Source: Pseudomonadota bacterium | GTDB lineage: Bacteria > Pseudomonadota > Gammaproteobacteria > GRL18 | Assembly (NCBI GenBank): GCA_030632745.1 | Contig: DAOVUE010000009.1 | Coordinates: 1-10,770 of the forward strand | Direction of reading: 5' to 3' | DNA length: 10,770 nucleotides | Part shown: piece after piece, positions 4,416 to 10,770 of the stretch | Layout of the letters: every line of letters starts with the position of its first letter | Numbering within the stretch: position 1 is the stretch's first letter | Program-made: the position numbers and the translations under genes | Notes under the pieces: generated by a model | What the model was told of the DNA's origin: nothing | The model's input: the letters and a program-made list of their open reading frames with translations, nothing else | The model's database searches: none

Positions 4416-5990
4416 ATGAGTAAAGAAATTCTCCTGGTCGTTGATGCCGTTTCACATGAACGCGGCATAGAAAAAGAAATAATATTTCAGGCACTTGAGT
4501 CGGCCTTAGCATCAGCGACTAAGAAGAAATATACTAAAGACATCGAGGTAAGAGTAGCGATTGATCGTGAGACCGGGGAATATGAAAGTTTTCGCTGCTG
4601 GCAGGTTCTTGACGATGAGGTCGATCCTTTTGAACATTATGACAAACAAGTCCTGCTGTCTCGTGTTATTGCTGATAATCCGGACATTAAGCCCGGAGAA
4701 TTTATAGAAGAACCTATTGAGTCTGTTGAATTTGGCCGTATTGCTGCTCAGGCCGCTAAACAGGTTATTGTGCAAAAAGTCCGTGAAGCTGAACGTAAGA
4801 AAGTGGTTGATGAATTTCAACTGCGTATTGGAGAAATGTTATCCGGTACCGTTAAGCGTATCGAACGCGGTAATGTTATTGTCGATTTGGGTAGTAATAT
4901 TGACGGCATTATTAAGAGAGAGAATATGATCCCCAGAGAACCCGTTCGTAATGGCGATCGTCTTCGCGGCTATCTCTATGATGTAAGCAGTCAAACCAGA
5001 GGGCCTCAATTGAGTTTCAGCCGTGTTTCGCCTGAGTTTTTAATTGAATTATTTAAAATTGAAGTTCCTGAAATCGGGGAAGAACTCATTCAAATACACA
5101 GTGCCGCACGTGATCCCGGCTTACGTGCTAAAATTGCAGTTGAGGCACATGACGAACGAATTGATCCTATAGGCGCCTGTGTTGGTATGCGGGGCTCTAG
5201 AGTACAGGTTGTGTCTAATGAATTGGCTGGTGAACGGGTTGATATCATTTTATGGGATGAAAATCCGGCGCAATTCGTTATTAATGCCATGTCCCCCGCA
5301 GAAGTACAGTCAATTGTTGTTGATGAAGAAAGCAATTCAATGGACGTTGCAGTGGAAGAGTCACAGCTTTCTATGGCAATTGGCCGCAACGGACAAAATA
5401 TCAAGTTAGCATCTCAGCTCACGGGCTGGACACTTAATGTCATGACGACTGAAGATGCTGAAAATAAAGATGAAGAAGAAACACAAAAAGTATTAAATCA
5501 GTTAATCGAAGATTTGGGTATTGATGAAGATCTGGCTATTATTCTGCTTAATGAAGGTTTTACTTCCTTAGAAGAAGTTGCTTATGTTCCGCTGCAGGAG
5601 ATGTTAGAGATTGAAGAACTTGATGAAGATATCGTTTTAGCATTGCGAGAACGTGCCAAGGATGTTTTATTAACCAGGGCAATTTCTGATGAAGAACAAT
5701 TAGGAGATGCTGAACCTGAAACTGATTTACTTGAAATGGACGGCATGGATGAACAACTGGCTCACCAGTTAGCATCCAGAAACATTATATCAATGGAAGA
5801 TCTAGCAGAGCAGTCAGTTGATGAACTGATGGATTTGGATGGAATGGATAAAAAACGTGCTGCTGAACTTATTATGACAGCTCGTGCTCCCTGGTTCGCA
5901 GAAATTGAGTCAGAGTCAGAGTCAGAGTCAGAAGCAGAAACTGCTGGCAATGAAGAAACAAGTGATCAGCCAACAGAAGATAAGCAGTAA
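4416..5990 (+). CDS. nusA: Transcription termination/antitermination protein NusA
   Basis: This 524-residue protein (E. coli NusA has 495) binds RNA polymerase, promotes pausing and intrinsic termination, and takes part in antitermination of rRNA operons. Domains in order: polymerase-binding N-terminal domain (~1-130); S1 domain (~137-200, [16 protein letters not shown]); KH1 (~230-280, GXXG loop GMRG at 257-260); KH2 (~305-345, GRNG at 323-326); and two acidic repeats (~365-420 and ~438-494). A hydrophilic tail from ~495 holds (Glu-Ser)4 encoded by a hexanucleotide repeat, then more acidic residues; it accounts for much of the extra length. The ATG at 4416 has AAGG at 4405-4408, seven bases upstream. 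The gene is 20 bp before infB. In enterobacteria NusA affects expression of its own operon, consistent with the leader terminator seen here. Confidence 0.98.
5907..5936 (+). repeat. Hexanucleotide microsatellite in the nusA 3' end
   Basis: GAGTCA is repeated four times without change (5907-5930), followed by the one-off variant GAAGCA (5931-5936). It encodes Glu-Ser four times, then Glu-Ala, in the acidic tail after the second acidic repeat. A six-base unit keeps the frame if copies are gained or lost. Confidence 0.95.
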
Positions 5991-6010: not shown

Positions 6011-8608
6011 ATGTCAGAAACAACCGTTTCACAATTTGCAAACACAGTCGGTACGCCTGTAGAACGTCTTATCGAACAAATGCACGGAGCCGGCATTAAA
6101 GCTGCCGGTCCTGATGCAGTCATTAGCGATGAAGAAAAACAAAAATTACTGGCCTTTTTACGTAATAAGCATGGTTCTGTTGACAAGACATCGCCCAATA
6201 AAATTACTTTAAAGCGTAAAACAACCAGTGAATTAACAGCTGCGTCCAGTGCTAATAAATCAGGTAATAGAGTCAAAGTTGAAGTTAGAAAAAAACGCAC
6301 CTATGTGAAAAAGAGTGAAATAGACACAAAGGTTATTTCGGCTGACGCTGAATTACTGGAAGCACGCCGCGTAGCACAGGAAGCTAAAAAATTAGAAGAT
6401 GAAAATATCAGGAAGGAAACTGAGGCACGTGATGCACTAAAAACTCAGGAAGAACGTGAACAACTTAAGCAGCAGGAAGCACTTGAAAAGCAGAAATTAG
6501 ATGAACAAAAAGCTTTACACGCCGCTGAAAAAAGTCAAAAAGATAAACGTGAAATTGAACAGCTGGCGAGAAAACAAACTAAACCCATTCTTAAAGAAGC
6601 ACCCCGGGGTGGAACTGCTAAAAAAGAGCTATCAGCTAAAAAAGAACCCTCTACAAACAAATTGCAGAAGGCTAAACAACGTCATCCGGACAAGCCTAAA
6701 CTATCGGCTGCAGATGCTAAAAAAGGCCCTGCCCATAAGCGTAAAGGCAAATCCTCAAGTGATCGTAATGGTTCAGGACGTTTTAAAGGCAAGCGATCCA
6801 GAAAACAGGATCCAGAGATTGAGACCCGCCATATTTTTGAAATGCCGACAGAAGTAAAAGTAATTGATGTTGAGCTTCCTGAAACCGTAAAAGTGGGTGA
6901 TCTGGCTAAAAAAATGTCAGTTAAAGCGGCTGAAATCATTAAAATAATGATGAATCTCGGTAGTATGGTGACAATTAACCAGATGTTAGATCAGGAAACA
7001 GCCTCTATTGTCGTTGAAGAAATGGGTCATAATCCGATATTCATGAAAGATGATCAGATTGAAGATGATCTAATGGAAACACATAATGAAGGAGAAGCAG
7101 TGAATCGTGCTCCTGTGGTTACCATTATGGGGCACGTTGACCATGGTAAAACCTCTTTACTGGATCATATACGTGATTCAAAGGTTGCAGATGGGGAGGC
7201 TGGAGGAATCACCCAGCATATTGGTGCCTATCATGTTGATACAGATAAAGGCATGATTACCTTTCTGGATACCCCGGGACATGCTGCATTTACTTCTATG
7301 CGTGCCCGTGGTGCTAATGCAACAGACATTGTAATTGTTGTTGTTGCTGCCGATGACGGAGTGATGCCGCAAACTAAAGAAGCGGTTCAGCACGCTAAAG
7401 CTGCTGGTGTACCAATTATCATCGCAGTAAACAAAATTGATAAGGAAGCGGCTGATCCAGAACGGGTTAAAAATGAATTATCCGCCTTTGATGTAATCCC
7501 TGAAGATTGGGGTGGTGATGTTATGTTTATGCCGGTTTCTGCTAAAACAGGGCAGGGTATTGACGAATTACTGGATGCCATCTCAGTGACTGCTGAAATG
7601 ATGGAATTAAAGGCAATTCCAGATGGTCCTGCAAAAGGTATTGTTATTGAATCCCGTCTTGATAAAGGACGCGGTTCTGTTGCTACTATTCTGGTGCAGA
7701 GCGGTCTGTTACAGAAAGGCGATATGATCATTGCCGGTCAGGATTATGGCCGCATTCGTGCGCTATTTGACGAAAATGGCCAGCATGTTAAAAAGGCCGG
7801 CCCTTCAATTCCTATTGAAGTGTTAGGTTTATCAGGTACTCCAACAGCCGGAGCTGAAGTCCTTGTTGTTAAAGATGAGCGTAGAGCTCGTGAAGTTGCA
7901 TTGTTCCGCCAGGGTAAATACCGCGATATTAAACTGGCCAGGCAGCAGGCTGCCAAGCTTGAGAATATGTTTAATAAAATGGAAAGTGGTCATGTACAAA
8001 GCCTCAACATTGTTCTCAAAGCGGATGTGCAAGGTTCTGTAGAAGCTATTTCTGATGCTCTGAAAAAATTATCTACCGATGAGATCAAAGTTAATATCGT
8101 TTCTGATGGTGTCGGTGGTATTAATGAATCGGATGCACAGTTGGCCCTGGCTTCAGGTGCTATTATCATTGGTTTTAATGTACGTGCAGATGCGTCAGCT
8201 AAGAGAATTATTGAAGCAGAAGGGATAGACCTACATTATTATAGTATTATTTATGATGTACTGGATGAAATTACATCTGCCATGACAGGTATGTTATCAC
8301 CTGAATTTAAAGAAGAGATTGTTGGTCTGGCTGAAGTACGGGATGTTTTCCGGGCACCGAAAATTGGTTCCATTGCCGGTTGTATGGTGCTTGATGGAGA
8401 GATGAAACGTAATAATCCCATTCGAGTGCTGCGTGATAATGTTGTAATATATGAAGGTGAACTCGAATCATTAAGACGTTTTAAAGACGATGTCAATGAG
8501 GTTAAATCCGGTTTGGAATGCGGTATTGGTGTTAAGAATTACAATGATGTCAAATCAGGTGATCATATTGAAGTGTATGAACGTGTTCAGGTTAAAAGGT
8601 CGTTATAA
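6011..8608 (+). CDS. infB: Translation initiation factor IF-2
   Basis: This 865-residue GTPase recruits fMet-tRNA to the 30S subunit and promotes subunit joining. Residues 1-52 form the first IF2_N domain. Residues ~85-265 are a long Lys/Glu/Ala-rich, probably helical and flexible linker. A second IF2_N domain follows (~280-335). The G domain has all motifs: G1 GHVDHGKT (374-381), G2 GGIT (398-401), G3 DTPG (420-423), G4 NKID (474-477) and G5 SAK (510-512). Domain II starts near 541, and the C-terminal half includes the [10 protein letters not shown] segment (671-680) and the initiator-tRNA-binding domain near the end. The ATG at 6011 is preceded by a GAGGA site. Length is close to E. coli IF2 (890). 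Shorter IF2 forms from internal starts are known in E. coli; I see no convincing equivalent start here. The stop lies two bases before rbfA. Confidence 0.98.
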
Positions 8609-8610
8609 TT

Positions 8611-9018
8611 ATGGCCGATGTTAATCGTTCCCGCAGAGTGGGTGAGCTGATTCAGAGAGAGTTAGCGACCCTGTTAAGTAGAGAGATTAAAGACCCCCGT
8701 CTTGCACTGGTTTCCATTACTGGCGTCGATGTCACTCGTGATATGGGATTTGCTAAAGTTTTTTATACTGTTATGGATCTTGATTCTGATCTGACGTCTA
8801 ATTCCCGGGTGGAACATGAAAAAATTCATAATGTAAAAGAGAGCTTAAAAAAAGCTGCTGGTTTTTTACGTTATGAACTGGGGAAGAGAATTCAGCTGCG
8901 TATTGTTCCACAGCTCAGTTTTCATTATGATGAATCTATTGTGCGCGGTTCCCAGCTATCTCAATTAATTGATAATGCGATTAAAGATGACAAAAAACGT
9001 CATAATCCTTCTGCATAA
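8611..9018 (+). CDS. rbfA: Ribosome-binding factor A
   Basis: This 135-residue KH-fold protein (E. coli RbfA has 133) binds the 30S subunit near 16S rRNA helix 1 during late maturation and cold adaptation. Family motifs seen: the N-terminal helix RVGELIQRELATLLSREIKDPRL (residues 9-31), the strand VSITGVDVTRDMGFAKVFYTV (34-54), the AAG kink in LKKAAGFLRYELGKR and the strand LRIVPQLSFHYDES. The gap to the infB stop is two bases, with AAAAGG in the infB end serving as ribosome site, so the genes are probably translationally coupled. The next gene, truB, is 113 bp downstream, an unusually long gap within this operon, and that gap holds a long imperfect hairpin. Confidence 0.97.
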   Translation: MADVNRSRRVGELIQRELATLLSREIKDPRLALVSITGVDVTRDMGFAKVFYTVMDLDSDLTSNSRVEHEKIHNVKESLKKAAGFLRYELGKRIQLRIVPQLSFHYDESIVRGSQLSQLIDNAIKDDKKRHNPSA

Positions 9019-9106: not shown

Positions 9107-9131
9107 CATGTTAGATAAGAGGTAATTCACC

Positions 9132-10067
9132 ATCGCTCGAAAAAGAAAGGGCCGTCCAGTTAATGGTATTCTGGTTCTTGATAAACCCGCTGGAATGACA
9201 TCTAATGCCGCACTGCAAAAGGTATAACGATTATATCAGGCCCAAAAGGCAGGCCATAGCGGTAGTCTTGATCCGCTGGCTACCGGGGTGCTGCCGCTGT
9301 GTTTTGGTGAAGCCACTAAAGTATCCCATTATCTTCTTGATGCAGATAAAACCTATATTGCTAAATGCATTCTGGGTTCAGTCACTACAACGGGTGATGC
9401 TGATGGTGAAGTAATAGCAACAAAACCCGTAGCGCTACTTAATAAACAACAATTGCTCAAGCTATTATCTGCTTTTACCGGCATACAGCAGCAAACCCCA
9501 CCGATGTATTCCGCTCTTAAACATAATGGTCGTCCATTGTATGAATATGCCCGCAAAGGCATTGAAATTGAGAGAAAGTCACGTCAGATTACTATTTTTG
9601 ATATTAAACTGCTTAATTACTCTTTTGCTACTGTAAAAGAAAGCTTTATTGAAATTCAGGTACATTGTTCAAAGGGTACTTATATCCGAACTTTGTGTGA
9701 GGATATAGGCCAAACATTGGGTTGCGGTGCTTATATCAGTGCCTTACGCCGCATTCAATCCGGTCCGTTTTCTATTTCTCAGTGCGTTACTTTAGATCAA
9801 CTTAATGAATACGATGAGTCTTCTGCTAAGATGCCATTAGATTCATTATTGCTCGCAACTGACAGCGCTATTGAAAACTTCCCCAAAGTAAGCCTCAATG
9901 AGTCACAATACGATCTGATCAATCATGGCCATAGTATTGATTGCTCCATAAACCTTTCTTCTGAACCTGGAAGCAATTATCGTTTATATTATCATGAAAC
10001 TTTGACTGCATTAGCGATCCTAACTGAAGAACGACAGCTAAAGCCTAAAAGACTGCTTTTTTTATAA
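9132..10067 (+). pseudogene. truB: tRNA pseudouridine-55 synthase TruB, start codon lost and internal stop
   Basis: The frame from 9132 to the TAA at 10065 covers 311 codons, close to E. coli TruB (314), and aligns with it throughout: [30 protein letters not shown], then a stop, then RLYQAQKAGHSGSLDPLATGVLPLCFGEATK. Two lesions are visible. The expected first codon is ATC (9132-9134), nine bases after a good AAGAGG site, with an in-frame TAA at 9123 ruling out an upstream start. Codon 32 is TAA (9225-9227), where E. coli has lysine; AAA to TAA is one substitution. The catalytic aspartate (GSLDPLATG, codon 47, 9270-9272) lies after the stop. The next start candidate, GTG 9288, would yield a 259-residue protein lacking it. 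The rest (PPMYSALKHNG, LYEYARKGIEI, HCSKGTYIRTLCEDIG) is intact with no frameshift, so inactivation would be recent. Alternatives: sequencing error, or AUC initiation plus readthrough. Confidence 0.85.
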
Positions 10068-10261: not shown

Positions 10262-10528
10262 ATGATTTCTGTACAGCAGAAAAGTGAAATAATAAAAGAA
10301 CATAGTCGCGGCACCAATGATACGGGTTCCCCTGAAGTCCAGGTCGCGATATTAACAGCTAAAATCATTGATTTAACAGAACATTTTAAAGTTCATAATC
10401 ATGATTTTCACTCTCGCCAGGGCTTATTAAGAATGGTGAGTAAACGTCGTAAAATGCTGGATTATTTAAAAAGAAAAGATGGTCAGCGTTACCTCTCGCT
10501 TATTTCTAAATTAGGCCTGCGTAAGTAA
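10262..10528 (+). CDS. rpsO: Small ribosomal subunit protein S15 (uS15)
   Basis: This 88-residue protein (E. coli S15 has 89) is a primary 16S rRNA-binding protein of the central domain and also forms an inter-subunit bridge. Family signatures seen: [15 protein letters not shown] (residues 21-35), the rRNA-binding loop [26 protein letters not shown] (45-70), and the end [13 protein letters not shown]. The ATG at 10262 has a strong AGGAG site (10252-10256) five bases upstream. The gene has its own predicted promoter and is followed, after 129 bp with a long RNA duplex, by pnp. The stop region repeats TAAG (AAGTAAGTAAG), with no obvious consequence. Confidence 0.98.
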
Positions 10529-10657: not shown

Positions 10658-10770
10658 GTGACACCAATTAAAAGATCTTTTCAGTATGGCCAGGATACGA
10701 TTACTCTTGAAACCGGCGAAATAGCTCGTCAGGCATCAGGGGCCGTCATGGTCAGTGTAGGTGGAACTTC
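10658..10770 (+). CDS. pnp: Polyribonucleotide nucleotidyltransferase (PNPase), N-terminus (3' partial)
   Basis: Only 37 codons are in the window, but they match the PNPase N-terminus: [36 protein letters not shown], the first strands of the first RNase PH domain (compare E. coli [25 protein letters not shown]). PNPase is a phosphorolytic 3'-5' exoribonuclease and a degradosome component. The chosen start is GTG 10658, with GGAG at 10644-10647 ten bases upstream; it gives the usual family N-terminus. An in-frame ATG at 10637 would add seven unconserved residues and cannot be fully excluded. The frame is open to the right edge. Confidence 0.93.

Follow-up and report, generated by a model that had tools for sequence, protein, structure and literature searches.

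Does a truB gene that has ATC in place of an ordinary start codon and a TAA at codon 32 still make its enzyme, and do these two changes have one cause or two? The window analysed here, a stretch of 10,770 nucleotides, is contig DAOVUE010000009.1 (C107) of assembly GCA_030632745.1, a bin of 2.07 Mb in 407 contigs that is 71.5% complete. It holds rimP, nusA, infB, rbfA, truB and rpsO as well as the first part of pnp. A sequence-only reading had noticed both changes and offered three accounts of them: very recent loss of truB, AUC initiation (as at infC) combined with readthrough of the TAA, or two base-call errors.

The truB locus

The truB frame lies on the forward strand at 9132–10067 and, as judged from its translation and a match to PF01509, is interrupted once, by the TAA. 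Its inferred start codon is the ATC at 9132–9134, the codon also found in two related genomes, G001 (locus L032) and G006 (L031). A Shine-Dalgarno-like AAGAGG (9117–9122) stands 9 bases 5' of the ATC, the 20-base upstream stretch giving a duplex energy of -7.2, and is followed by an in-frame TAA (9123–9125). All three features had been reported by the sequence-only reading and can be read directly in the DNA. Codons 2 to 21 occupy 9135–9194, and codon 22 (9195–9197) is an internal ATG which, from aligned proteins and DNA, is the point at which gene callers start the protein in relatives. The TAA at codon 32 (9225–9227) falls on lysine 33 of E. coli TruB when the related protein P0001 is aligned with chain 1r3f, bearing out the claim that E. 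coli has a lysine there. In the same alignment the GAT at 9270–9272, which lies beyond the TAA, pairs with residue 48 of E. coli TruB, an aspartate that we take to be catalytic. There is no in-frame ATG, GTG or TTG between the TAA and this codon; the next listed in-frame start is a GTG at 9288.

Beyond the TAA, 279 codons are open up to the stop at 10065–10067, in keeping with the roughly 280 intact codons first described, and PF01509 (TruB_N) matches this part of the frame with an E value of 4.5e-55. The window gene carries both the TruB_N domain and the GH.G.LDPLATG motif that mark a TruB tRNA pseudouridine 55 synthase; what it lacks, in this assembly only, is an uninterrupted frame. The suggested search for a second truB found none, PF01509 having a single match in a bin that, at its level of completeness, leaves room for a second copy elsewhere. 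A search of a plasmid collection gave zero matches, a tRNA scan of the window found no tRNA, and a scan of 57 stretches of G006 gave nothing bearing on the truB question.

The neighbouring genes have ordinary starts. On the forward strand, the start is ATG in infB (6011–8608), rbfA (8611–9018) and rpsO (10262–10528) and GTG in the beginning of pnp (10658–10770), and each of these is the same in the window, G001 and G006. Likewise, nusA (4416–5990, also on the forward strand) has ATG in the window and in G006, and rimP has ATG in the window. None of the window's other complete genes has an internal stop.

A probable AUC start codon kept within a clade

The host clade is a group of marine sulfur-bacteria relatives. 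The nearest named relatives of the window's genome (G000) are G006, from a symbiont of the clam Taylorina, and G001, isolate C1.bin.13. Other members of the genus are symbionts of Lucinoma myriamae, of Bathyaustriella thionipta and, probably, of the snail Gigantopelta aegis; such symbionts are placed in order Thiohalomonadales, family SZUA-152, by PMC9938160.

A truB gene was found in all 16 genus members examined, with ATC as codon 1 in three (G000, G001 and G006) and ATG in the other 13. Six further members of the family (G016 and G018 aside) have ATG, and all 82 of the more distant loci examined have ATG, GTG or TTG. The comparison with close relatives that had been proposed as a check thus returned the ATC twice and the codon-32 TAA nowhere else. 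Two further genomes carry the ATC at this very codon, which makes its presence more than chance. The 60 bases 5' of truB are identical at only 18 to 19 of 60 positions between ATC genomes, and at this background a match of all three bases across three sequences should, by rough arithmetic, arise about once in a thousand. An upstream in-frame stop is present in all three ATC genomes, so a start farther 5' is ruled out, and from that stop to codon 22 none of the three has an in-frame ATG, GTG or TTG. The AUH codon is thus kept where relatives have AUG, with no usable AUG, GUG or UUG beside it.

Protein databases can extend this picture. In two protein-cluster searches, each scoring the best 8000 candidates and listing 120, at least 14 clusters (P0001–P0013 and P0016) among the matches listed group with the three ATC genomes. 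Twelve of the 14 start at the internal methionine of MTSN, which is codon 22; P0008 starts farther in, and P0007 extends upstream with isoleucine at codon 1. A TruB tree of 74 rows was built with the N-terminal residues left out. The 17 rows in which codon 1 is not the called start fall into a single clade (support 100/98), and the label changes once. In the remaining 56 rows, as judged by eye, the called start is at codon 1; P0014, with its ambiguous start, was not counted. Codon 1 was seen as DNA in three genomes of this clade, the missing ATG of the other 14 rows being read from gene-caller starts. The DNA-verified ATC occurs in both main branches of the clade. Two cases could be checked: over the compared region P0004 matches L031 exactly and P0012 matches L032 almost exactly, and in both an internal start call accompanies the ATC.

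Evidence for translation from the AUC

If the ATC is a start, the codons behind it should be kept as protein. Among the three ATC genomes, codons 2 to 21 have pN values of 0.05–0.16 against pS values of 0.56–0.71; pN lies far below pS, the mark of coding constraint from the AUH codon onward, and this segment looks selected as protein. It also holds an LDKP motif that is found in relatives with ordinary starts. The three ATC copies have strong Shine-Dalgarno sites: their duplex energies are -7.2, -6.4 and -9.2, whereas the 13 ATG copies have a median of -2.9 (p = 0.016, on rows that are related to one another). The strongest site overall, at -10.7, nevertheless belongs to an ATG relative.

In 12 of the 14 related clusters the called protein begins at codon 22, and one could suppose that this internal ATG is the clade's true start and that codons 1 to 21 are untranslated. 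We consider this very improbable, as it leaves the protein-level conservation of codons 2 to 21 and the LDKP motif shared with ordinary-start relatives without a reason. Two other readings of the ATC were rejected. A base-call error, which the sequence-only reading had allowed for both changes, does not fit a codon that recurs in two other genomes, and recent decay does not fit an old, shared ATC that is confined to a single clade, with codons 2 to 21 conserved and a zero-length end branch for the window gene.

The ATC is, then, a conserved and probably working AUC start codon, and for the clade as a whole AUC initiation, with the codon-32 TAA a separate and private change, is the best explanation and a highly probable one. 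Most simply, ATG would have changed to ATC once at codon 1, in the ancestor of the clade, and would then have been kept. The good Shine-Dalgarno site would put the initiator tRNA on the AUC despite a poor codon–anticodon match. By analogy with infC, the likely result would be a low level of TruB synthesis restrained by IF3, and we infer that translation of truB may be weak and IF3-sensitive.

The TAA at codon 32

The sequence-only reading had treated the two changes together, as one decay, one unusual decoding or one set of errors. By the comparison of genomes they are instead independent events, the ATC being much the older. No truB relative displayed has a stop at codon 32. P0001, a protein 99% identical to the window's, has lysine there and may come from the same sample. 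Two further residues also differ, and P0001 is thus not encoded by the window. In the 74-row tree the window gene has a zero-length end branch over the part compared, and the TAA is therefore the lone sign of damage within that part. On this evidence the TAA would be a nonsense mutation that arose very recently in the sampled strain, or else an error of assembly. A real TAA should abolish TruB in that strain, since translation has no start codon to use between the TAA and the active-site aspartate.

Of the two marks of a pseudogene, a disabling mutation in the frame is present at 9225–9227, unless it is an error; relaxed selection on the remaining frame is absent, the end branch having zero length, although a loss that is too recent would look alike. 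A decaying truB, in which the start was lost, a nonsense mutation followed and pseudouridine 55 synthesis went with them, is favoured by a stop before the active site, by the lack of another truB in the bin and by another probable in-frame stop elsewhere in this genome, within a diguanylate cyclase gene. Against this, the ATC is common to genomes whose truB is otherwise intact, the window's branch carries no extra protein change and codons 2 to 21 are still conserved; decay could therefore begin only with the TAA. Decay in this sense is a serious candidate, though we would put it somewhat short of an even chance, and it is the part of the recent-loss account that survives. An assembly or sequencing error at the TAA, in a strain whose truB is intact but for its AUC start, stands at about even in our estimate. 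The lysine of P0001, the zero-length branch and the fragmentation of the bin into 407 pieces all speak for an error, but the window's other complete genes are without internal stops, so the local error rate looks low. The readthrough half of the AUC account fares much worse than its initiation half, which conservation supports. It is scarcely credible that ribosomes read past the TAA or take it for a sense codon: the open, conserved frame 3' of it, and nothing else, favours the idea, while the stop is private, P0001 has lysine, no displayed relative has a stop there and no other complete gene of the window contains an internal stop.

Other broken genes were sought in 108,269 bases of the window's genome (the window and 20 further contigs of the 407). 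Five same-frame junctions were checked with Pfam, of which four looked like ordinary neighbours and one like an in-frame stop, a TAG at about 2273–2275 on the minus strand of L124 (G000:C100), in a probable diguanylate cyclase gene. Nonsense changes, real or artefactual, thus occur elsewhere in the bin too. On the same contig, the signal-peptide region of a neighbouring phosphonate-binding-like gene holds a TGA.

Relation to known AUH starts

The same enzyme family includes E. coli TruB (1r3f, 1k8w), which was aligned through the LDPLATG motif; the E. coli gene starts with AUG, whereas the gene here has AUC. A closer parallel in initiation is infC, which encodes IF3. Like truB here, infC is a housekeeping gene of translation whose AUH start follows a good Shine-Dalgarno site, and in this genus it has the same codon: infC begins ATC GCA after AGGAG in all 13 genus members where it was found (L111–L123), and was not located in G000, G001 and G010, all of which are incomplete. 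The IF3 proteins of those 13 members, compared by eye with an E. coli sequence, showed nothing striking. The two genes differ in one respect: there is no known action of TruB on its own start codon, and any control of truB by IF3 would therefore be indirect.

Two papers give further precedents. In E. coli, infC has an AUU start against which IF3 itself acts, and pcnB is a second gene with AUU (PMC9410913). It resembles truB in having a poor start codon and encoding an RNA-modifying enzyme that is no initiation factor, and differs in its codon (AUU, not AUC) and in being a different gene. In S. aureus, infC starts with AUA, and conserved AUA and AUU starts with strong Shine-Dalgarno sites yield, in poor medium, about one tenth of what AUG does (PMC13009471). 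The Staphylococcus genes ccpN (AUA) and cvfC1 (AUU), described in the same paper, share with truB a lineage-conserved AUH start and a strong Shine-Dalgarno site. Their starts were established by initiation-site profiling and reporters, whereas that of truB is supported by sequence comparison. Conserved AUH starts are thus already known (infC, pcnB, ccpN), and truB joins them as a new case; among the papers listed by searches of the open-licence PMC literature, no title or abstract shown reports a non-AUG truB start.

Other genes without ordinary starts

A scan for AUH starts can reveal whether truB has company. In G006, 1.134 Mb with 734 coding ORFs gave 116 candidate positions, from which infC, truB, mutL, mreC and lipB were picked by eye. 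The other rows displayed were fragments, a split kinase or chance, and false leads were many. The score of truB was low (3.0), so the scan serves as a pointer and not as proof. A smaller scan of 334 kb of G006 flagged 6 of 224 ORFs, with infC and truB credible, and one of 108 kb of G000 picked out 3 ORFs among 60: the truB frame past the TAA and two that we take as noise. Two side observations come from G006. At about 210385 of contig C1 (L177) a serine/threonine kinase-like gene is apparently split by a frameshift just before the DFG motif, and lipB (L239, contig C7) has ATT in this one genome, against TTG in most relatives.

The mutL locus was obtained from 22 of the 24 genomes of the family (L208–L222 and L312–L318, with L210 on G000:C332 for the window's genome). 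At the place where ATG is expected it has GTT in 15, ATT in two, ATC in one, GTG in two and ATG in two. The GTT, ATT and ATC codons lie 7–8 bases past GGAG, and the GTT occurs in 10 loci of the genus and five of a sister genus. Of these 15 loci, four have an in-frame GTG that overlaps the Shine-Dalgarno site and one has TTG codons far upstream; one ATT case (G001) is at a contig edge. Outside the family, 29 mutL loci of the class were compared, of which 28 have ATG and one has GTG. If it is used as these alignments suggest, a GUU start of mutL would be very unusual.

For mreC, all 13 genus loci with an N-terminus (L224–L236) have ATA (10) or ATT (three: G000, G001 and G006), and no canonical in-frame start lies upstream in any of them. 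Across the class (L254–L282), 28 loci were aligned; ATC, ATT or ATA occupies the start position in 19, and 18 of these lack a canonical start upstream. Set against the mutL and truB counts, the habit of mreC is wide and those of mutL and truB are local. A search of open-licence PMC listed no paper on mreC and its start codon.

Implications

Taken together, these genes may point to a group that the genus runs from poor start codons (infC on AUC, truB on AUC, mreC on AUA or AUU, and mutL on GUU, AUU or AUC), held back by IF3, rescued by strong Shine-Dalgarno sites and hidden from gene callers. We offer this idea tentatively and hold it to be less probable than its absence. If it were true, an IF3-governed group would join tRNA modification, mismatch repair and cell shape, and such genes would be hidden from gene callers that take only AUG, GUG and UUG. 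The truB case also shows what gene callers do to such proteins: the predicted N-terminus is moved inward, here to codon 22 or farther, or the gene is given the look of a pseudogene. By taking up a poor start codon in a housekeeping gene and keeping it, the clade offers a natural experiment on how such a codon sets protein dose, and with truB, mutL and mreC together one could test directly whether IF3 governs genes beyond its own.
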